64,000 nt of DNA from Frigoribacterium endophyticum (lineage in GTDB: Bacteria > Actinomycetota > Actinomycetes > Actinomycetales > Microbacteriaceae). Made by a program: the position numbers and the translations under genes. The notes beneath the pieces are model-generated. The model made no database searches and was not told where the DNA came from. It was given only the letters and a program-made list of their open reading frames with translations. The stretch spans positions 1-64,000 of the forward strand of contig NZ_JAAOYV010000004.1 of assembly GCF_011759585.1 (NCBI RefSeq), written 5' to 3'. Of this stretch, positions 39,356-63,687 are shown in pieces (the stretch's first letter is position 1; every line of letters begins with the position of its first letter).

Positions 39356-39559
39356 CTGGTCGCTCGACGTGCCGAGGGCGCCGTGTCACCGCGAGGTGGG
39401 CGGCGCCCTTCGTCGCGCGGGGGCGTACGGGGGATGCGCGCCGCGCCCTGAGTCGCGCTCGGAATGCGAGAGGGATCTGGTCGGGGCGGGCGGTGTCGTG
39501 CGGCTGTGGCGGCCGTGCAGGTCGGATCACTCTCAGATTCGGAGGGGGCCGAGGTCGGG

Positions 39560-39644
39560 CTGCAGAACCCGACCGTCGGGGCTGTAGTAGTGGGAGATCC
39601 GGGTACCAGGGGCCGTGGTGGGTGCGGATGGTCGGCTTGTGCAG
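39560..39644. repeat. Inverted-end repeat element, copy 3
   Basis: The left end CTGCAGAACCCGACCGT and right end GGTCGGCTTGTGCAG flank a core with GATCCGGGTACCAGG. It lies in tandem unit 1. Confidence 0.75.
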
Positions 39645-39795
39645 CGGTGTCGGTGCGCGGAGCGCTGGGGAGGGCCGCGCGGCTGGCCGCGCTCGGAATG
39701 CGAGGGAGATCTGGTCGGTGCGGGCGGCGGCGCGCGGCTGCGGAGGCCGTGCGGGGCGGATCACTCGCAAATTCGGAGGGGGTGCCACTGTCGTG

Positions 39796-39880
39796 CTGCA
39801 GAACCCGACCGTCGAGGCTGTAGTAGTGGAAGATCCGGGTACCAGGGGCCGTGGCGGGTGCGGATGGTCGGGTTGTGCAG
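39796..39880. repeat. Inverted-end repeat element, copy 4
   Basis: The ends CTGCAGAACCCGACCGT and GGTCGGGTTGTGCAG flank the same core as copy 3. It lies in tandem unit 2. Confidence 0.75.
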
Positions 39881-40195
39881 CGGTGTCAGTGCGCGAAGCG
39901 CTGGGCAGGGCCGCGCGGCTGGCCGCGCTCGGAATGCGGGAGGGATCTGGTCGGGGCGGGCGGCGGCGTGCGGCTGTGGCGGCTGCTCGGGTCGTATCGC
40001 TCTCGAATTTGAGAGTGCGGCGGGGTGACGGGGGCCTGAGGTGACGGTGTCGGCGCGCGGAGCGCTGGGCAGGGCCGCGCGGCTGGCCGCGCTCGGAATG
40101 CGGGAGGGATCTGGTCGGGGCGGGCGGCGGCGTGCGGCTGCGACGGCCGTGCAGGTCGGATCACTCTCAAATTCGGAGGGGGTGCCGTGGTCGGG

Positions 40196-40280
40196 CTGCA
40201 GAACCCGACCGTGGGGGCTGTAGTAGTGGGATATCCGGGTACCAGGGGGCGCGGCGCGGGCGGATGGTCGGCATGTGCAA
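40196..40280. repeat. Inverted-end repeat element, copy 5
   Basis: The ends CTGCAGAACCCGACCGT and GGTCGGCATGTGCA flank a core with TATCCGGGTACCAGG. It lies in tandem unit 4. Its right end matches the stand-alone copies 1 and 2 best, linking the array to them. Confidence 0.75.
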
Positions 40281-45273: not shown

Positions 45274-45599
45274 GGGGTGGGCTCCGGGGCCTCGGGGGCG
45301 GGTCGTGCGCGAGCGTGCGGGGCGACACGGTGCGGGGGGTCACGACGAGGGGCGAGGTCGACCCGCCGAGGGCGGGGAGCGAACTGCCTCGACGACGAGC
45401 ATAGCTCGGATGACGAGTAGTTCGCCCGTCGAGCCATGTCCCCTTGAGTGGGGGCATGCTTCGGCTTGCGTGCTACTCGGGTGACAAGTAACTTGATTGT
45501 CGTACCACTTGAGAGGCCAACCACTCGGATACCGAGCAAATTGTTCTCCGAGGCTCTCCCCCCAACTTCCCGTTCCACCCCAACCACCTGGAGCTCCCC
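45274..45599. promoter_or_regulatory. Divergent control region with three MarR-type boxes
   Basis: This 326-bp gap between marR-type and tasA-type genes is AT-richer than its surroundings. It has three related 17-bp sites: GCTCGGATGACGAGTAG (45404-45420), ACTCGGGTGACAAGTAA (45475-45491) and ACTCGGATACCGAGCAA (45523-45539), consensus RCTCG-N5-CRAG. The first site sits in the -10/-35 spacer of the MarR gene; the others are 61-125 bp upstream of the TasA-like start. The promoter of the TasA-like gene was not resolved. Confidence 0.6.
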
Positions 45600-46229
45600 A
45601 TGTCGCGTCCCACCCCCCGCATCGCCCGCCTCGCCGCCTGGATCGCCATCCCCGCCGCCCTCGTCGCCTCCGGCCTCGTCGTCTCGCAGGCCTCCTACTC
45701 GGCGTTCTCGTCGACCACGGCCAACCCGACCAGCAACTGGACCGCGGGCAGCGTCGCCCTCACCGACGACGACGGCGGCACCACGGCCGACGGCTCGACC
45801 GGCGCCGCGATGTTCCAGGCCACGAACCTCAAGCCCGGCTCGACCGGCTCCAAGTGCATCGCGGTCACCTCGACCGGCTCGCTCGCCTCGGCCGTCAAGC
45901 TCTACAGCAGCAGCTACTCGACCACCAAGGCCCTCGGCGACAACATCACGCTGAACATCACGCAGGGCACCGGCGGCGGCTTCGGCTCCTGCACCGGCTA
46001 CACGCCCGCCCAGGGCGCCGCGGGCGCCGTCTACTCCGGCACGGTCGCCGGCCTCAGCACCGCCGCCACCAACTACGGCAACGGCGTCGGCACCTGGGCG
46101 ACCGTCGGCGGCACGACCCCCGAGGTCCGCACCTACCAGGTGACCTACACGGTCAACGCCGCGGCGACCAACGCCCAGCAGGGCGGCACCGCCGCGATCG
46201 CCCTCACCTGGGAGGCGCAGAACAGCTAG
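45600..46229 (+). CDS. TasA/CalY-like exported protein with SipW-type signal
   Basis: A 209-residue secreted protein. Residues 1-30 form a signal peptide (basic start, then a hydrophobic helix to VVSQASYSAF). It runs into SSTTANPTSNWTAGSVALTDDD, which matches the SipW-processed pattern of TasA and camelysin (cleavage region, then an N...AG strand). The rest is Ser/Thr/Gly-rich and beta-like with two Cys. GGAG lies 6 nt before the ATG. Such proteins build surface fibres or biofilm matrix in Bacillus; that role here is inferred. A SipW-type peptidase is encoded 417 bp downstream. Confidence 0.8.
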   Translation: MSRPTPRIARLAAWIAIPAALVASGLVVSQASYSAFSSTTANPTSNWTAGSVALTDDDGGTTADGSTGAAMFQATNLKPGSTGSKCIAVTSTGSLASAVKLYSSSYSTTKALGDNITLNITQGTGGGFGSCTGYTPAQGAAGAVYSGTVAGLSTAATNYGNGVGTWATVGGTTPEVRTYQVTYTVNAAATNAQQGGTAAIALTWEAQNS

Positions 46230-46646
46230 TCGCCCGGCCGCCGGCCCCGACAGCCGGCGGCCCCGACCGCTGAGAGCTCCACCGACTCCCGTCGCCGCTC
46301 CTCCCCCCCCTGCGTCGCGACGGGCCCCACCTCGCCGCCCGCCCCGACCCCCCGCGGGGCGGACGGCGAGGACCTCCTCCGGCCCCCTGAGCCGGCCGGA
46401 GGAGCAGCAGCACCGCAGGACGCCCGATCGCCCGCGACGCCGCACCGCACGACAGCACCACTGCACCACCCGGCCCCCCACCTCGCCGGTCGCACGCCCA
46501 CCCCGAGCACCACCGCACCGCCCCCGACGCACCACCGCACCACCGCCCCGTCCGACCCGGAGCGCAGCACGACAGCAGCACCGCAGCACAGCACCGCAGC
46601 ACGACAGCACTCACCACGCACGCACCACGAGACCACGAGGCACGCC
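46230..46646. other. C-rich, G-poor gap upstream of the fused peptidase gene
   Basis: In the last 260 bp (about 46380-46640) the plus strand is very rich in C and A, with repeated GCACCACCGCACC-like runs and few Gs. Such unstructured C-rich RNA is typical of Rho loading (rut) sites. No gene and no clear hairpin terminator were found. It may attenuate transcription between the TasA-like and the peptidase genes. Confidence 0.55.
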
Positions 46647-48149
46647 ATGACCACCTTCGACTTCCTCAGCCCGGCCACCGCCGCGGCGCAGGTCGCCGGG
46701 TCGCGGCGTGCCTCTCGGTCGTGGTCGCACTGGCTCCGCCTGCTGGTCGGGGTGCTCTCGCGAACCGTCCTCGCCACCGTGGTGGGCCTCCTCCTCTGGG
46801 CCGCCGTCCCCGCCGTGATCGGCTGGACCCCCACGACGGTCATGACCGGCTCGATGGAGCCGCGCATCCACCCCGGTGACATCGTGGTCGCGAAGCCCGT
46901 CGCCGAGTCGGCGATCCGCCAGGGCCAGGTGCTCCTCTTCCAGGACCCCGACCGCGCCGACCACCTCCGCCTGCACCGCTACCTCGACAACGGCGAGGGC
47001 ACCACGATCGTCACCAAGGGCGACGCCAACCCGCAGGCCGACAGCACCCCGGTCGCCCGCGACGCGGTCGTCGGCGTCGGCTACCTGCGCGTGCCGTACC
47101 TCGGCACGCCCTTCGTCTGGGCCCAGGCCGGCCAGACCGGCCACCTGCTCGTCACGGGCAGCCTCCTGATGCTGCTCGTGCTCGGCGCCCGCGCCGACCG
47201 CTACCTGCTCACGGGCCTGGAGGGCCCCGAGGAGTCGCCCCGCACCTCCCGCCGTCCGGTCGCCCTCGCCGGCGGTCGCGTGGCCGCCCGCCGCAGCGTC
47301 CGTCGTGCGGCCCGGCTCCGGGTCGCCGGCAGCACGCTCGCCGTGGTCGGCCTCGTCTCGGGCCTCGCCGTGACCCTCGTCGTCTCGGGCGGCGCCGGCG
47401 CCGCCTTCTCGGCCCAGGTCGCGAACCCGTCGAGCGCCTTCGGCGCCGCGTCGACCTTCGACTGCCTCACCGACGCGTACAACGACCAGACCTCCTTCGG
47501 CTTCTCGTACAACGAGACGTCGGGCACGACCACCACCGACGGCAGCGCCTTCGCCCGCGTCGGCACCCTGAGCTCCGGCGCCTCGTTCGTCGGCGGGTCG
47601 TGCGCGGCGAACTCGAGCCCGTCGCTGCAGCTCGACGGCACCTCGGGCCAGGTCACCACGGCCGTCATGCTCGGCGGGCAGCCCTCGTTCACGGCCGAGA
47701 CCTGGTTCCGCACCACCACGACCCGCGGCGGCGCGCTCGTCGGCTTCTCGTCGGCGCAGACCGGCACCACCACGACCACCGACCGCGCCCTCTACATGAC
47801 GAACACCGGCACCCTCGCGCTCGGCGTCCGCCCCACGACCAGCACGGTGAAGACGACCGTCACCCCCCGCGCCTACAACGACGGCGCCTGGCACCACGTC
47901 GTCGCGACGCTCTCGAGCACCGCCGGCGTCGTCATCTACGTCGACGGCCAGGCCGTCGTCACCGACACCACCTCGAAGACCGCCCAGGCCGCCACGGGCT
48001 ACTGGCGAGTCGGCTACGTGCCGCTGACCGGCCTCGGGTCGGCGCCGACCAGCAGCTGGTTCGCGGGCCAGGTCGACGGCAGCACGATCTACAACAACTC
48101 GGCGCAGACGGCCTCGCAGGTCCAGACGCGGTTCGCGGCCGGGCACTGA
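46647..48149 (+). CDS. SipW-type signal peptidase fused to a LamG surface protein
   Basis: A 500-residue fusion. Residues 33-181 are a SipW/ER-type signal peptidase: a membrane helix, the Ser69 box VMTGSMEPRIHPGDIV, His110 in LRLHRY (His replaces the usual lysine), the GDANPQAD box, and a second helix. Residues 201-260 repeat a complete export signal, a basic stretch followed by a hydrophobic helix, ending GAAFSAQVANPSSAF as in TasA-type substrates. Residues 325-497 form a LamG/concanavalin-like jelly-roll (SFTAETWFRTT, AWHHVVATL, YVDGQ, YWRVGYV). The enzyme and its probable substrate are one polypeptide. In the second locus the equivalent proteins are separate. Confidence 0.85.
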   Translation: MTTFDFLSPATAAAQVAGSRRASRSWSHWLRLLVGVLSRTVLATVVGLLLWAAVPAVIGWTPTTVMTGSMEPRIHPGDIVVAKPVAESAIRQGQVLLFQDPDRADHLRLHRYLDNGEGTTIVTKGDANPQADSTPVARDAVVGVGYLRVPYLGTPFVWAQAGQTGHLLVTGSLLMLLVLGARADRYLLTGLEGPEESPRTSRRPVALAGGRVAARRSVRRAARLRVAGSTLAVVGLVSGLAVTLVVSGGAGAAFSAQVANPSSAFGAASTFDCLTDAYNDQTSFGFSYNETSGTTTTDGSAFARVGTLSSGASFVGGSCAANSSPSLQLDGTSGQVTTAVMLGGQPSFTAETWFRTTTTRGGALVGFSSAQTGTTTTTDRALYMTNTGTLALGVRPTTSTVKTTVTPRAYNDGAWHHVVATLSSTAGVVIYVDGQAVVTDTTSKTAQAATGYWRVGYVPLTGLGSAPTSSWFAGQVDGSTIYNNSAQTASQVQTRFAAGH

Positions 48150-48219
48150 CGCACCGCGCCTCCTCGGGGGCTCGACCCGCGCCTCCTCGGGGCGGCCCCC
48201 GCTCTGGGAGACTGGCCGG

Positions 48220-49203
48220 ATGCCCCTCCAGATCAACGACGTCTACGTCGACGGCCGCCTGCACGCCTCGCACGACACGCTCGACGAGACGTACGCGGCC
48301 CTCGCCGAGACCGGCGGCACCGCGTGGGTCGTGCTCAGCGAGCCCGACGCCGCCGAGCTGGCCTCGCTGCAGCGGCGCTTCGACCTGCACGAGCTCGCCG
48401 TCGAGGACGCCGGCTCGGGCCACCAGCGCGCCAAGCTCGAGCGGTACGGCACCACGCTCTTCGTCGTCGTGCGGCCCGCGGTCTACCTCGACGACGAGGA
48501 GACCGTGGCGTTCGGCGAGATCCACGGCTTCGTCGGGCCCGACTTCTTCATCGGCATCAACCACGTCTCGCACATCGACGCCCGGCACGTCGCCCGCAGC
48601 GTCTCGCGGCTGCGCACCAAGCCCGACCTGCTCGGGGCCGGGCCGCAGGCGATGCTCTGGGCCCTGCTCGACGCGGTCGTCGACGCCTACAAGCCGGTCA
48701 TCGACGGCCTCGAGAACGACATCGACGAGATCGAGCAGCAGCTGTTCTCCGGCGCGCCCGGCGTCGCGCGGCGCATCTACGAGCTGTTCGGCGAGGTCAG
48801 CGACTTCCAGAAGGCGTCGCGGCCGCTGATCGCGATGCTCGACGGGCTGCTGCGCGGCGGCGAGAAGTACGGGCTCGGCACCGAGCTCGAGCGGCGGCTG
48901 CGCGACGTGCAGGACCACGTCATCCGCGTCGTCGACCGGGCCGACACCTTCCGCGCCGTGCTGCAGAACGCGCTCGCGCTGAACGCCACGCTCGTCGCCC
49001 AGGACCAGAACGAGGTCACCAAGCGCATCTCGGCCTGGGCCGCCATCCTCTTCGCGCCGACCCTCGTCGGCGCGATCTACGGCATGAACTTCGACGTCAT
49101 GCCCGAGCTGCACTGGGCGCTCGGCTACCCGTTCGCGCTCGGGCTGATGGCCGCGATCGGCGGCGGGCTCTGGGGGGCGTTCCGGCTCAAGCGCTGGTTG
49201 TAG
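48220..49203 (+). CDS. corA: CorA-family magnesium/cobalt transporter
   Basis: A 327-residue divalent-cation channel with a large cytoplasmic domain and two C-terminal helices. The invariant GMN motif is present (YGMNF) in [26 protein letters not shown]. The ATG at 48220 follows a GAGACT box (48208-48213) by 6 nt, so it is probably leaderless. A second CorA is encoded at 62620 with an extra segment in its stalk. Confidence 0.93.
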   Translation: MPLQINDVYVDGRLHASHDTLDETYAALAETGGTAWVVLSEPDAAELASLQRRFDLHELAVEDAGSGHQRAKLERYGTTLFVVVRPAVYLDDEETVAFGEIHGFVGPDFFIGINHVSHIDARHVARSVSRLRTKPDLLGAGPQAMLWALLDAVVDAYKPVIDGLENDIDEIEQQLFSGAPGVARRIYELFGEVSDFQKASRPLIAMLDGLLRGGEKYGLGTELERRLRDVQDHVIRVVDRADTFRAVLQNALALNATLVAQDQNEVTKRISAWAAILFAPTLVGAIYGMNFDVMPELHWALGYPFALGLMAAIGGGLWGAFRLKRWL

Positions 49204-56804: not shown

Positions 56805-57473
56805 ATGTCCTCCCACGTCTCCCTGCGCCGTCGGCGCGTCCGCACCACCCCGCTCGCCCTCGCGGCCGGCGTCATCGGCTCGATCGTGCTCAGCCTCACG
56901 ATGACGGGCACGCTCTCGTCGTTCACGGCCAGCATCGCGAACGACAAGAACACCGTCGGCACGGCCTCGCTGGCCATGAAGGAGGCGCTGGTGTCGTCGT
57001 CCGTGCCCGGCACGACGAGCGGCACCACCTGCAGCAGCACCGACGGCGGCGCCGGCTCGTCGGCGGCGACCTGCTCGACCATCAACAAGTTCGGCGGCGA
57101 CACCGCCATGACCCCCGGCGGCCCCGCCGCGACCACGCAGGTCAGCATCCAGGCCACGGGCACGGCCGCCGTCCGCACCTTCACGCTCTCGCCCGGCACC
57201 TGCACGCAGACCGCGACGGCCGGCTCCGCCACGACGGGGTCGGCCACCGACCTGTGCAGCAAGATCCGCGTCTCCGTCACGACCGCGGGAGGCGCCTCGG
57301 TCTTCTCCGGGACGGCGGCGGGCCTCGCCAGCGGCGGCCCGATCACCCTCACCGCGCCGAGCGGCCAGACGGCCGTGCCCTTCACCTTCGTCGTCTCGCT
57401 CGACTCGACGGCCGACAACAGCTACCAGTCGCTGACTGCCTCGATGCCGCTGACGTGGACCTTCACGGCCTGA
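56805..57473 (+). CDS. TasA/CalY-like exported protein, second locus
   Basis: A 222-residue secreted protein. It has a basic head RRRRVRTTP, a hydrophobic helix (16-38) and the SipW-type processing region TLSSFTASIANDKNTVGTASLAMKE. The mature part is Ser/Thr/Gly-rich with four cysteines and a beta-sheet character, similar in style to the 45600 protein but little alike in sequence. GAAGG lies about 9 nt before the ATG. Its last 19 bp overlap the start of a signal peptidase gene, so export enzyme and substrate are translated together. Confidence 0.75.
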   Translation: MSSHVSLRRRRVRTTPLALAAGVIGSIVLSLTMTGTLSSFTASIANDKNTVGTASLAMKEALVSSSVPGTTSGTTCSSTDGGAGSSAATCSTINKFGGDTAMTPGGPAATTQVSIQATGTAAVRTFTLSPGTCTQTATAGSATTGSATDLCSKIRVSVTTAGGASVFSGTAAGLASGGPITLTAPSGQTAVPFTFVVSLDSTADNSYQSLTASMPLTWTFTA

Positions 57474-58342
57474 CGTCGGCGCCCCTCGCGCGTCGGCTCG
57501 GCGCGCTCCTGCTCGCCGTGGCGGTCGTCGGCGCGGTCGCCCTGGCCGTCGCGGCGGGGGCGTTCCACCACGGGGGAGGGCGCTGGTTCGTCGTGACCTC
57601 CTCGTCGATGGGGGAGGCGGCGCCGGTGGGGACGCTGGTGCTCACCGAGCCGACCCGCGCCTCCGGCCCCTCCGCCGACCTGCGCGTCGGCGACGTCGTG
57701 ACCTTCCGCCCGCCGACCGTGCCGGGCGAGGTGTACACCCACCGGGTCGCGTCGATCGGCGCCGACGGCGTCCGCACCAGCGGCGACACCACCGGGGCCG
57801 TCGACCCGTGGCTGCTCGGCGACGACGACCTCGTCGGCCGGGCCGTCGCCCTGCTGCCCGGCGTCGGGTGGCTCGTGCGCGGGCTGCCCTGGCTCGCCCT
57901 CGGGGCGCTGGCGGTCTGGGCGGTCGGCACGCGCCTCCGCTCGGACTCGGCGCGCTCGGCCTTCTTCCTCGTCGCGGGCTGCGCCGTGGTGCTCGGCGTC
58001 GTGTCGGTGCTGCGCCCGTTCGTCGGGGCCGTGCTGCTCTCGACCACGGTCGACGCCGCGGGCCGGGGCGTCGCCCACGTCGTCTCGACCGGGCTCGTGC
58101 CCGTGCGGGTCGCGGCCGAGGGCGGCGGCCACGCCGACCTCGTCAGCGGGGCCGTCGGCCAGGTGCCGGTGCCCGCGGGCGCCTCCGCCGTCGACCTCAC
58201 GACGTCGCTGCACCTGCCCGTCGTGGGCTGGGTCGTCGTCGCGCTGATCTGCGCCTCGCCGCTGATCGCGGTGCTCACGCTGGGCCTGCCCGCGGGGGAG
58301 CCCCGGGCCGAGCGCGGCCGCCGCCGGGCGGAGCCGGCGTGA
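57455..58342 (+). CDS. SipW-type signal peptidase, second locus
   Basis: A 295-residue membrane protein. It has a first helix (13-35), then the catalytic Ser51 in VVTSSSMGEAAPVGTLV, the basic/His box YTHRVAS with His96 (SipW/ER-type Ser-His pair), and TSGDTTGAVDPW in place of the GDAN box. Unusually, after the second helix it has two more helices with a roughly 60-residue outer-face segment between them (about 195-255). The only good in-frame start is GTG 57455, which overlaps the TasA-type gene by 19 nt. It overlaps the LamG gene by 4 nt. Confidence 0.78.
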   Translation: MDLHGLTSAPLARRLGALLLAVAVVGAVALAVAAGAFHHGGGRWFVVTSSSMGEAAPVGTLVLTEPTRASGPSADLRVGDVVTFRPPTVPGEVYTHRVASIGADGVRTSGDTTGAVDPWLLGDDDLVGRAVALLPGVGWLVRGLPWLALGALAVWAVGTRLRSDSARSAFFLVAGCAVVLGVVSVLRPFVGAVLLSTTVDAAGRGVAHVVSTGLVPVRVAAEGGGHADLVSGAVGQVPVPAGASAVDLTTSLHLPVVGWVVVALICASPLIAVLTLGLPAGEPRAERGRRRAEPA

Positions 58343-59835
58343 GCGGGCGGCACCTCGCGCACCGCTCGGCGGCGCCCCGGCTCCGTGCCCTCGCCGCCGT
58401 GCTGGCCGTGGCGCTCGTCGCGGGCCTCGGCCTCGTGACCGGCTCCACCGAGGGCACGAGCGCGGCCTTCACGGCGTCCGTCCGCAACACGGGGGACCGC
58501 CTGCAGACGGCCACCTACTTCCGGTGCCCCGACGCGTGGGCCCCGCAGCGCGACGGCGCCGTCTTCCAGTGGCCGCTCGACGAGCAGGCGATCGCCCAGC
58601 TCGTGCGCGACACCTTCTCGGACACGGCCGGGGCACCGCTCTCCGGCCACACCGGCGACACGGGCGGCACCTGGCTGCGCCACAACTCGAGCGGGAGCAC
58701 GGAGGTCGTGTTCACCGGTGCGGGCCGCGTGCGGAAGTCGGGCAGCACCTCGTTCGTCCTGTACCGCTCGGAGCCCGCCTCGAGCAGCCCGAACTACACG
58801 GTGAGCGCCGACGTGTTCGTGCGCAGCACCGTCGCCGCCGACGCCGTGGGGCTGGTGGGCCGCCTCAACACGGGCTCCGCGACCAGCACGACCGGCACCT
58901 ACTACACGGCCCGCTACGAGCAGGCCGACAAGCGCTGGGCGCTGTGGTCCGTCGTCGACGGCGGCCAGACCCTGCTCGGGACGTCGCCCGCGACGCTCGC
59001 CGACGGCAGCACGACGCGGTTCTCGCTCGACCTGGTGGGGTCGACGATCCGCGTGCTCGTCGGCGGCGCGCAGGTGATCGCCGTCACCGACACCAGCATC
59101 ACCGAGACGGGCCGAGCCGGCCTCGCGGTGGGCACCCCCGGCGGCTCGGCCTACGCGACGAGCGACACCACCGGCCTGCAGCTCGACGCCTTCGTGGTGC
59201 AGCCGACGCAGCGAGCCACCGACGTCTCCGGGCACGGCGCGACCGGCGCCTACGTCGGCTCGCAGGGCACCCTCGCCCGCCCTCCCCTGCCGAGCTGCCC
59301 CCGCGACCCCGGGGCCGCCTACGACCCCGACGGCAGCACGAGCTACGTCACGTACCCGACGAAGCAGTCCGACCCGCAGACCTTCAGCATGGAGACCTGG
59401 TTCCGCACCACCAGGCCGCAAGGCGTCGTCATCGGGTTCGGCGACTCCGCCACGGGCACCTCGACGCAGGCCGACCGTCTGCTCTACGTGAGCGCCGAGG
59501 GGCGCCTGATCTACGGGCAGCGGCCGCGCAACGTGCAGACGATCCGCACCACGACGTCCGTCACCGACGGGGCCTGGCACCACGTCGCCGTGACGTACAC
59601 GCCGAAGGGCGGCATGACGATGTACCTCGACGGGCGTCGCGTCGCCTACGACGCGACGGTGCAGTCGGCGATGAACTACGACGGGTACTGGCGCGTCGGG
59701 GCCGGCACGATCCCCTCGGGGTGGCCCGTGACCCCCGACTCGCCCTACTTCGTCGGAGGGCTGCGCTACGCGGCCGTCTACTCGGTGGTGCTGACCGAGG
59801 AGCAGGTGCGGCAGCACTGGGAGGCGGGGCGGTAG
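58339..59835 (+). CDS. LamG-domain surface protein with SipW-type signal
   Basis: A 498-residue exported protein. The head is MSGRHLAHRSAAPRLRALAA, followed by a hydrophobic helix and the SipW-type region GTSAAFTASVRNTGDRLQTATY. Two jelly-roll domains follow: residues about 80-295 (NYTVSADVFVRST...ARYEQADKRWALW) and about 325-495 (FSMETWFRTT, AWHHVAVTYTP, MYLDGRR, GYWRVGAG). The C-terminal domain is clearly related to the LamG part of the 46647 fusion. The GTG start overlaps the peptidase stop by 4 nt. Probably a surface glycan-binding or adhesin protein. Confidence 0.8.
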   Translation: MSGRHLAHRSAAPRLRALAAVLAVALVAGLGLVTGSTEGTSAAFTASVRNTGDRLQTATYFRCPDAWAPQRDGAVFQWPLDEQAIAQLVRDTFSDTAGAPLSGHTGDTGGTWLRHNSSGSTEVVFTGAGRVRKSGSTSFVLYRSEPASSSPNYTVSADVFVRSTVAADAVGLVGRLNTGSATSTTGTYYTARYEQADKRWALWSVVDGGQTLLGTSPATLADGSTTRFSLDLVGSTIRVLVGGAQVIAVTDTSITETGRAGLAVGTPGGSAYATSDTTGLQLDAFVVQPTQRATDVSGHGATGAYVGSQGTLARPPLPSCPRDPGAAYDPDGSTSYVTYPTKQSDPQTFSMETWFRTTRPQGVVIGFGDSATGTSTQADRLLYVSAEGRLIYGQRPRNVQTIRTTTSVTDGAWHHVAVTYTPKGGMTMYLDGRRVAYDATVQSAMNYDGYWRVGAGTIPSGWPVTPDSPYFVGGLRYAAVYSVVLTEEQVRQHWEAGR

Positions 59836-62619: not shown

Positions 62620-63687
62620 ATGGCACTCATCGACAACGGCATCTACGTCGGCGGCACCCGCACGCGGACGCCCGCCGACCTCCGCGAGACCTACGCCGCC
62701 CTCGACGACACCGCGGGCGGCCTCGCCTGGATCGGCCTGTTCCGCCCCAGCCCCGCCGAGCTCGACTCGGTGGCGGCCGAGTTCGACCTGCACCCGCTCA
62801 GCGTCGAGGACGCCCGCAAGGGCCACCAGCGCCCCAAGCTCGAGCGCTACGGCGAGACGCTCTTCATCGTGCTGCGCTCCGCCTGGTACGACGACGAGCG
62901 CGAGGCGGTCGAGTTCGGCGAGGTGCACCTCTTCGCGGGGCCGCGCTTCGTGCTCACCGTGCGGCACGCCGAGCGCCCCGACCTCGGCCAGGTGCGCAAG
63001 CGCCTCGAGGCCGACCCGGAGTTCCTCGCCAAGGGGTCCGAGGCCGTGCTCAGCCGCGTGCTCGACGAGCTGGTCGACGGCTACGCCCCCGTGGTCGCGG
63101 GCCTGCAGGACGACATCGACGAGATCGAGGACGACCTCTTCGACGGCCAGGTCGCCCCCGAGTCGTCGAAGCGCATCTACCAGCTGCTCTCGGAGGTGAT
63201 CGGCTTCCAGCGCGCCATCGGGCCCCTGCCCGAGATGGTCGACTCGCTGCTGCGCGGCGCCGCCAAGTACGGCACCGACGACGAGGTGCAGGCGCAGCTT
63301 CGCAACGTGCTCGACCACACCATCCGCATCACCGAGCGCGCCGACACCTTCCGCGTGCTGCTCGAGAACGCCCTGACCCTGCACTCGACGCTCGTCACCC
63401 AGGAGCAGAACGACGCGATGCGCCGCATGACCAGCGCCAGCCTCGCCCAGGGCGAGGAGAGCCGCCGCCTCGCCCGCGCCTCGATGGAGCAGGGCGAGGA
63501 GGTCAAGAAGATCTCGTCGTGGGCGGCGATCCTCTTCGCGCCGACCCTCGTCGCGTCGATCTACGGCATGAACTTCGACGTGATCCCCGAGCTGCACTGG
63601 CGCTTCGGCTACCCGTTCGCGCTCGGGCTCATGCTGCTGCTCGGCGTCGCCCTCTGGCTCGTCTTCAAGAAGAAGCACTGGCTGTAG
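62620..63687 (+). CDS. corA: CorA-family transporter with extended stalk
   Basis: A 355-residue CorA paralogue of the 48220 gene with the GMN motif in [14 protein letters not shown]. Compared with that protein it carries an extra ~28 residues ([20 protein letters not shown]) just before the first membrane helix, containing an internal near-repeat ([14 protein letters not shown]). This should lengthen the stalk helix. AGGAG lies 8 nt before the ATG, so this copy is leadered, unlike the other. Its leader includes a long C-rich stretch. Confidence 0.92.

Follow-up and report, generated by a model that had tools for sequence, protein, structure and literature searches.

The window analyzed here, meaning the whole stretch of DNA under study, comprises 64,000 nucleotides of a contig of Frigoribacterium endophyticum (Actinomycetota; Microbacteriaceae). 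It contains an ORF, running from ATG to TGA without an internal stop, in which a signal peptidase of the ER/SipW type is joined through a linker and a second export signal to a LamG domain (Table 1). This composition, with Ser69 and His110 as catalytic residues, had been proposed in a first-pass annotation, and profile searches bear it out. NCBIfam signal peptidase I (TIGR02228) matches residues 41–176 with 66.2 bits (cut-off 51.85), and Pfam Laminin_G_3 matches the C-terminal domain with 53.6 bits (cut-off 27.6). The Pfam S26 model, at 20.2, lies just short of its cut-off of 22.9. Against the Bacillus SipW equivalog NF046067 the protein scores 57.3 bits, under the curated cut-off of 190; though outside that equivalog, the peptidase is predicted to work like SipW.

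Table 1. Features of the fused gene, of its upstream neighbor, and of the second locus in the window.
Feature	Position	Strand	Remarks
TasA-like (camelysin-class) secreted subunit	45600..46229	+	209 aa; predicted fiber subunit and second candidate substrate
Whole fused gene	46647..48149	+	500 aa: peptidase, linker, internal signal, LamG
First membrane helix	46722..46817	+	Residues 26–57; AlphaFold helix 26–57 and hydropathy
ER/SipW-type peptidase domain	46818..47105	+	Residues 58–153; TIGR02228, Sec11 alignment, invariance in 58 fused proteins
Codons of invariant residues	S69 46851–46853; H110 46974–46976; D126 47022–47024; D132 47040–47042	+	
Second membrane helix region	47106..47189	+	Residues 154–181; AlphaFold helices 154–161 and 164–181; presumed out-to-in direction
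Arg-rich linker, poorly conserved	47205..47321	+	Residues 187–225; presumably cytoplasmic
Internal SipW-type signal	47322..47402	+	Residues 226–252; predicted cut between A252 and A253
N-terminus after predicted cut	47403..47462	+	Residues 253–272, AFSAQVANPSSAFGAASTFD; proposed donor strand (compare passages of PMC9674648 and PMC10151520)
LamG/concanavalin-like jelly roll	47634..48122	+	Residues 330–492; PF13385 E 3.6e-14; predicted model
Second-locus secreted protein, TasA-like position	56805..57473	+	222 aa; N-terminal signal by eye
Second-locus separate signal peptidase	about 57455..58342	+	Start GTG 57455 chosen by eye
Second-locus separate LamG protein	58339..59835	+	Own N-terminal signal ...GTSAAFTASVRN; PF13385 E 2.4e-18

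Alignment with the solved structures of human Sec11A and Sec11C places S69 in the motif SGSMEP, H110 in a His-Arg (HR) stretch, and D126 in TKGDN; these three residues and D132 show no variation in an alignment of 58 fused proteins. Loss of the catalytic Ser or His in homologs, which the first-pass annotation had raised as a possible objection, was not found, both residues being kept in 58/58. The predicted Ser-His catalytic pair and conserved Asp are those of ER-type signal peptidase I (TIGR02228, NF046067, Sec11), and the surrounding motifs are alike, whereas the fused protein adds a linker, an internal signal, and a cargo. Structure prediction, suggested earlier as a check, was carried out using AlphaFold with the 58-sequence alignment as input (mean pLDDT 84.8, pTM 0.52). 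The model consists of an N-terminal helix, a confident peptidase, the two short helices that follow it, and a confident LamG domain (pLDDT 87–98 by blocks of ten). The hydrophobic segment before residue 252 is drawn as a helix (211–245) with pLDDT 43–69, and the junction (245–270) is disordered between the two confident domains. In a fold search with this model, the top 50 of 364 matches below E 0.001 were clostridial neurotoxin and related jelly-roll binding domains at 8–14% identity; these matches are taken to reflect a common concanavalin-like fold only.

The fusion is real and conserved. After removal of near-identical proteins (140 reduced to 127), there are 99 non-redundant fused proteins including the window's own, all from Actinomycetota. 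In the same family, 221 of 398 genomes match the fused protein at E up to 1e-10, and a single match extends across both halves in at least 24 genomes; within the genus such a match is found in 10/10 sampled genomes. Genomes lacking a match are included in these totals. Among the 80 named loci listed of 354, there are 51 one-ORF fusions, two interrupted frames, five split loci, and 22 with LamG only. Fusions occur in Frigoribacterium, Curtobacterium, Amnibacterium, Schumannella, Microbacterium, Arthrobacter, Pseudarthrobacter, Modestobacter, Geodermatophilus, Allobranchiibius, Phycicoccus, and Microlunatus. Two complete Arthrobacter plasmids carry relatives with an Ig-like cargo (820 and 852 aa), each annotated as a single CDS. 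The genome from which the window is taken holds a second fused copy, 34% identical to the first, and a third one, in which the cargo is a small beta domain that matches no Pfam family. A search of class genomes with the peptidase only matched 58 of 296; of the 30 loci drawn from it, 13 are fused (the window's own among them), 16 are standalone, and an assembly gap interrupts the remaining one. With the peptidase profile, 15 of the 16 standalones score below 100.

The predicted cut in the fused protein follows Ala252 (A250-G-A|A-F254), which places Phe254 at P2′. Among the 58 aligned fused proteins, P3 is Ala in 40, Ser in 10, Thr in six, and Gly or Val in one each; P1 is Ala in 55 and Ser in three; and P2′ is Phe in 47, Tyr in seven, Trp in two, and Pro or Met in one each, so that it is aromatic in 56/58. 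In this alignment the junction is kept though the linker varies: the distance between the second and the internal helix ranges from 12 to 106 residues in the 99 fused proteins, and within the genus the linker is 34–46% identical versus 69–85% for the peptidase. Of the 99, 92 have a loose small-x-Ala-aromatic motif after the internal helix, 18 after the first membrane helix, and three after the second; for a strict form of the motif the corresponding numbers are 76, four, and five. A matrix derived from TasA-like signals only scores highest at the internal junction in 93/99, where 6.6 would be expected by position; in the window's fused protein the highest-scoring stretch is 250–266, AGAAFSAQVANPSSAFG. 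When the matrix is restricted to residues after the aromatic, the junction is found in 61/99 and missed in 38/99. A profile-HMM signal test matched 17 of the 99 at E<0.01, all in the part beyond the peptidase, and none of 99 reversed sequences or 15 standalone peptidases; the window's own fused protein gave no match in it.

The internal segment possesses an n-region, an h-region, and A-x-A followed by an aromatic P2′, and on these features it is a predicted SipW-dependent signal; a search of the fused protein with the NCBIfam model for such signals (TIGR04088) gave no match. The basic start, the hydrophobic core, and A-x-A|A-F agree with the TIGR04088 type, whereas its position is internal and not N-terminal. 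From residue 223 onward the fused protein can be aligned with the second locus's freestanding LamG protein, and the internal segment therefore appears homologous to an N-terminal signal. A second basic and hydrophobic export signal like those of TasA-type substrates had been suggested beforehand, and the composition and position are indeed those of a SipW-type signal; together with the alignment from residue 223, this upholds the proposal that a peptidase and its probable substrate lie in one chain.

Passages of PMC10269814 state that the P-type peptidase LepB of E. coli is hindered by an aromatic P2′ and cuts poorly, and that TasA, whose P2′ residue is Phe, is processed by SipW, a dedicated ER-type enzyme. 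The aromatic signature is carried by both candidate substrates, namely the internal signal and the TasA-like protein encoded upstream. Since Phe254 suits an ER-type SipW and would be poorly handled by LepB, the protein's own peptidase is the likely cutter. Another enzyme may act instead, because the same genome encodes two ordinary S26 peptidases plus SipW-type paralogs. We consider it quite probable that cutting at the internal signal takes place.

The upstream protein is characterized by a SipW-type N-terminal signal (...ASYS|AFSSTTANPTSNW, predicted cut), and its F36 is invariant in 51 aligned family members. At E up to 0.01, the camelysin family PF12389 matches 27 of these 51 (best 6.8e-7), NCBIfam TasA (NF046066) seven, and TIGR04088 one; TIGR04088 also found one TasA-like neighbor below its cut-off. 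The window's copy scores 14.8 bits with PF12389, below the cut-off of 22.5, and an NCBIfam search of it gave no match. Its predicted model (mean pLDDT 82) reveals a signal helix and a beta-rich domain; residues 29 to about 47 are largely unstructured and of low confidence. When compared to the PDB, the sole match below E 0.001 is the TasA fiber 8aur (E 6.5e-6, probability 1.00, TM 0.52 by query and 0.47 by target, rmsd 8.8, 14% identity); weaker matches (E 0.01 to 0.2) include archaeal and chaperone-usher donor-strand pili. The model points to a TasA fold for this protein.

Upstream of the fusion, and on its strand, a TasA-like gene of some 200 codons is found in 111/111 fused loci with 900 bases of room (copies kept) and in 98/98 non-redundant fusions with 1100 bases of room; one is found downstream in 2/83. 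In a wider set drawn from the order, the phylum, and plasmids, it precedes 17 of the 19 fusions whose peptidase scores at least 100, and in one of the two exceptions a TasA-like domain sits inside the fused ORF itself. The neighbor is also found beside seven of the nine standalone peptidases that score at least 100; in the lower-scoring standalone class set it is upstream in 6/14 and downstream in 8/15. The pair of a TasA-like gene and a peptidase is probably the older state. As standalone peptidases share the neighbor, the pairing by itself proves no role for the cargo. In the window the two genes are separated by a C-rich gap of 417 bases (46230–46646), whereas in many other fused loci the gap is below 130 bases; a consensus scan of 45300–48300 found no promoter- or terminator-like sites. 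Directly after the fused gene, at 48220–49203, lies a gene named by eye as a CorA-like transporter.

The cargo behind the junction is variable and includes LamG, Ig-like, GH26, and small beta domains, a TasA-like domain, and, by eye, RCC1-like repeats (L200) and short carbohydrate-binding-like domains (L170, L172); in other cases it consists of about 20 residues only. The small beta domains were labeled FN3 by eye only, and in three proteins of this kind the cargo matched no Pfam family. On a peptidase tree of 93 rows, the distribution of LamG requires eight changes and that of the small beta domain five. Five copies from the genus (L008, L010, L037, L038, and L039) have peptidases 82–85% identical versus LamG domains 39–47% identical; in a sixth (L005) both are near 79%. 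The TafC family fimbrial model (NF052521) matches 16 of 58 fused proteins at E up to 0.001, and the window's fused protein is not among the matches. Membership in that family was rejected, as single proteins reach 14 to 24 bits where the cut-off is 410 (24.3 bits for the second-locus LamG protein), and a LamG resemblance is all that is read from these matches.

Three loci from three species of one genus (L168, L169, and L171) have about 20 residues of cargo after the predicted cut and a TasA-like gene upstream; they are natural test cases for a strand-only adaptor. In L173 a SipW-type peptidase is fused directly to a TasA-like domain, and no separate TasA-like gene was found in the 1.6 kb upstream. 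L166 (5986–7632, on a Pseudarthrobacter plasmid) encodes a peptidase, an internal signal, and GH26; its public annotation starts inside the peptidase, omits the first part, and names only a glycosyl hydrolase. Three plasmid records take the fused gene's name from its cargo (twice Ig-like, once glycosyl hydrolase) and list the TasA-like neighbor as a "hypothetical protein".

In the wider set, a protein was counted as fused when the motif and more than 80 residues followed the peptidase, and L168, L169, and L171 (57 to 58 residues) were added by eye. The 30 peptidases scoring at least 100 then divide into 19 fused (three on plasmids, three by eye), nine standalone, and two unclear; the 24 scoring below 100 comprise 21 standalone and three with longer C-termini. 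The first tree was reduced to its 93 rows by dropping 32 near relatives by hand and two short fragments, and for a second tree of 113 rows 15 more were dropped. In the first tree, six of 75 clade rows are without cargo: L133, L149, and L150 are standalones, and in L082, L103, and L141 an interrupted frame or an assembly gap precedes the cargo, which follows in another frame. In L082 and L103 the interruption falls between peptidase and cargo. The enlarged tree holds 14 standalones versus 74 fusions, with six rows uncounted, and requires at least eight changes between the fused and standalone states. The fusion may have had a single origin on this tree; the idea that it marks the whole clade is weakened by these standalones from wider sampling.

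The first-pass annotation had drawn attention to a second locus in the window with the same parts as separate genes. Such genes are present at 56805–59835, but they are probably not the unfused counterpart of the fused gene: split-type peptidases from five other loci form a separate lineage on the tree, and the idea that a split locus is an ancestor or fission product of the fusion is unsupported. The window's own split peptidase scores too low for the profile and is not among the rows of the tree. It reaches 24.9 bits with PF10502, above the cut-off, and 35.8 bits with TIGR02228, below the cut-off, and its gene overlaps that for LamG by GTGA. The secreted protein in the TasA-like position has no Pfam or NCBIfam match. 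About 2.8 kb past this locus lies another gene named by eye as a CorA-like transporter (62620–63687), whose pairing with the one at 48220–49203 may be chance.

The nearest known arrangements are tapA-sipW-tasA of Bacillus subtilis and sipW-tasA/calY of B. cereus, in which, according to passages of PMC9674648, PMC10151520, PMC10269814, and PMC13082335, a dedicated ER-type peptidase is encoded beside a TasA-class subunit. Portions of PMC9674648 place the donor strand of B. subtilis TasA at residues 28–38, with F29 at the interface, and describe the N-terminus of TapA as resembling it. Passages of PMC10151520 indicate that TapA, like SipW, is far scarcer than TasA, that the stop of tapA overlaps the start of sipW, and that a strain secreting only TapA residues 44–57, 14 residues in all, forms a proper biofilm; the N-terminal peptide alone had a weak effect on TasA in vitro. 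The actinobacterial locus appears alike in its ER-type peptidase, its predicted TasA-like subunit, and the Phe or other aromatic at P2′; a candidate second substrate with a putative donor-strand-like N-terminus would be a further likeness. It differs in that peptidase and candidate second substrate form one chain with an internal signal, whereas in Bacillus the peptidase and TapA are separate proteins. The Ig-like fold of TapA is absent from the fused protein, the cargo being LamG or another type, and what is proposed here is a TapA-like role and not membership in the TapA family.

We surmise that the fused gene is the second half of a condensed, two-gene operon of the tapA-sipW-tasA type. The first gene would make a TasA-like fiber subunit and the second an ER-type signal peptidase with a C-terminal part that serves as a substrate in its own right. 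After the two membrane helices the chain would be back in the cytoplasm, the basic linker and internal signal would re-insert it, and LamG would be exported. The peptidase would then cut after Ala252, in cis or on a neighboring copy, and would also cut the TasA-like protein. The freed N-terminus (AFSAQVANPSSAF) would be of the TasA donor-strand type, and the freed LamG would act like TapA, starting, capping, or decorating the TasA-like fiber and supplying a binding domain; the fusion would keep the doses of peptidase and adaptor equal.

The shared post-cut motif, the variable cargo, and the few strand-only cargos fit a SipW fused to a TapA-like adaptor. The motif after the aromatic is common to fused and TasA-like proteins in 61 of 99 cases, where it may mark a donor strand, and the cargos of about 20 residues, found in three species of one genus, recall the 14 TapA residues that allow a proper biofilm according to portions of PMC10151520. 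The TasA-like neighbor and the swapping of cargo suggest a condensed TasA-type fiber operon, which goes beyond the self-releasing surface protein first envisaged. The TapA-like role is argued by analogy from position, dose, and the N-terminal motif, the fold of the cargo being different, and a donor-strand action of the LamG cargo is proposed on the same footing; the chances that the freed cargo has a role in the fiber seem about even. Several results count against the account: the 17/99 in the profile-HMM test, the 38/99 failures of the mature-part matrix, the pTM of 0.52, the score of the window's TasA-like protein below the Pfam cut-off and its lack of an NCBIfam match, the weak in vitro effect of the TapA peptide, the 14% identity and rmsd of 8.8 of the TasA-like model's match to 8aur, and the nine standalone peptidases among the 30 scoring at least 100, which do without fusion. 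Our confidence in the overall account is moderate; the occurrence of the TasA-like neighbor beside standalone peptidases has lowered it.

On a broader reading, Actinomycetota would use polyproteins headed by a signal peptidase as a general means of export and assembly: a swappable cargo, placed behind an internal signal that suits the peptidase's specificity, would be freed at the membrane, and its new N-terminus would plug it into a TasA-type donor-strand fiber. The peptidase would keep the tail of the product (...A-G-A252) as a third helix near its active site, where it might limit later activity. This we regard as possible yet doubtful.

The cut might also serve simply to release LamG as a secreted or wall-associated, lectin-like adhesin with no direct part in assembly of the TasA-like fiber. 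Such an adhesin is compatible with the cut-site evidence, which fits processing of an internal signal, and with varied cargo, the GH26 glycosyl hydrolase domain included, which fits general export; the neighbor shared with standalone peptidases may moreover reflect the peptidase only. The post-cut motif common with TasA-like proteins (61/99) argues in the other direction, as do the three loci whose cargo of about 20 residues is too short for a binding domain, and we judge this explanation rather unlikely. Still less probable is an uncleaved protein in which residues 226–249 form a stable third helix and tether LamG to the membrane as a surface platform beside the peptidase. The segment is hydrophobic and helical and is preceded by basic residues, but an anchor has no need of Ala or Ser at P1 (58/58) and an aromatic at P2′ (56/58) at the end of the helix; the motif is seldom present after either of the other helices (18/99 and 3/99), and the freestanding LamG paralog has the aligned segment as its N-terminal signal.

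Very unlikely, judging from the linker sequences, is a second product in which LamG with its own signal is translated from a start codon inside the linker. The window's fused gene has a GTG at codon 212, some start codon occurs in 57/99 linkers, and the Arg-rich linker resembles the n-region of a signal; against this, an ATG occurs in only 12/99 linkers, with a Shine-Dalgarno-like site in 1/99, and a GTG or TTG with such a site in 3/99, whereas 59/85 chosen ATG starts of whole genes have one. An artifact that fuses two genes, whether through the frameshift or assembly error allowed for by the first-pass annotation or through a missing stop, is ruled out, for although long open frames arise by chance in G+C-rich DNA, comparison of the 99 non-redundant fusions reveals that they stay in frame despite their variable linkers, the fusion recurs in 10/10 genomes of the genus, and it is one CDS on two complete plasmids.

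The fused gene is a variant of the SipW/TasA system, apparently undescribed in the open-access literature, in which a signal peptidase is translated with its own probable substrate; among the titles and starts of abstracts listed by full-text searches of that literature, none describes a peptidase-substrate fusion. If cut as predicted, the fused protein would be a cellular signal peptidase made as a single chain with a substrate of its own, and to our knowledge no such system has been described. Viral polyproteins with internal signal sequences are likewise made as one chain from which parts are released, and there the host signal peptidase cuts; in the fused protein, by contrast, the peptidase belongs to the chain. 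Cutting as predicted would extend TasA-type donor-strand fibers to many Actinomycetota and would suggest how such fibers gain binding domains. It would also make concrete the functional SipW-TapA link suspected for Bacillus in passages of PMC10151520. The swapping of cargo behind one internal signal would offer a natural modular export design. Public annotation hides the fusion through cargo-based names and a hypothetical-protein neighbor.

Elsewhere in the window, imperfect direct repeats occupy 39440–40279 in three to four copies, most of whose starts are 234–236 bases apart and which are 63–91% alike by family. They are intergenic and lie just before a gene named by eye as DEAD-box helicase-like. 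Similar repeat wording seems, by eye only, to recur near 61.9–62.2 kb.
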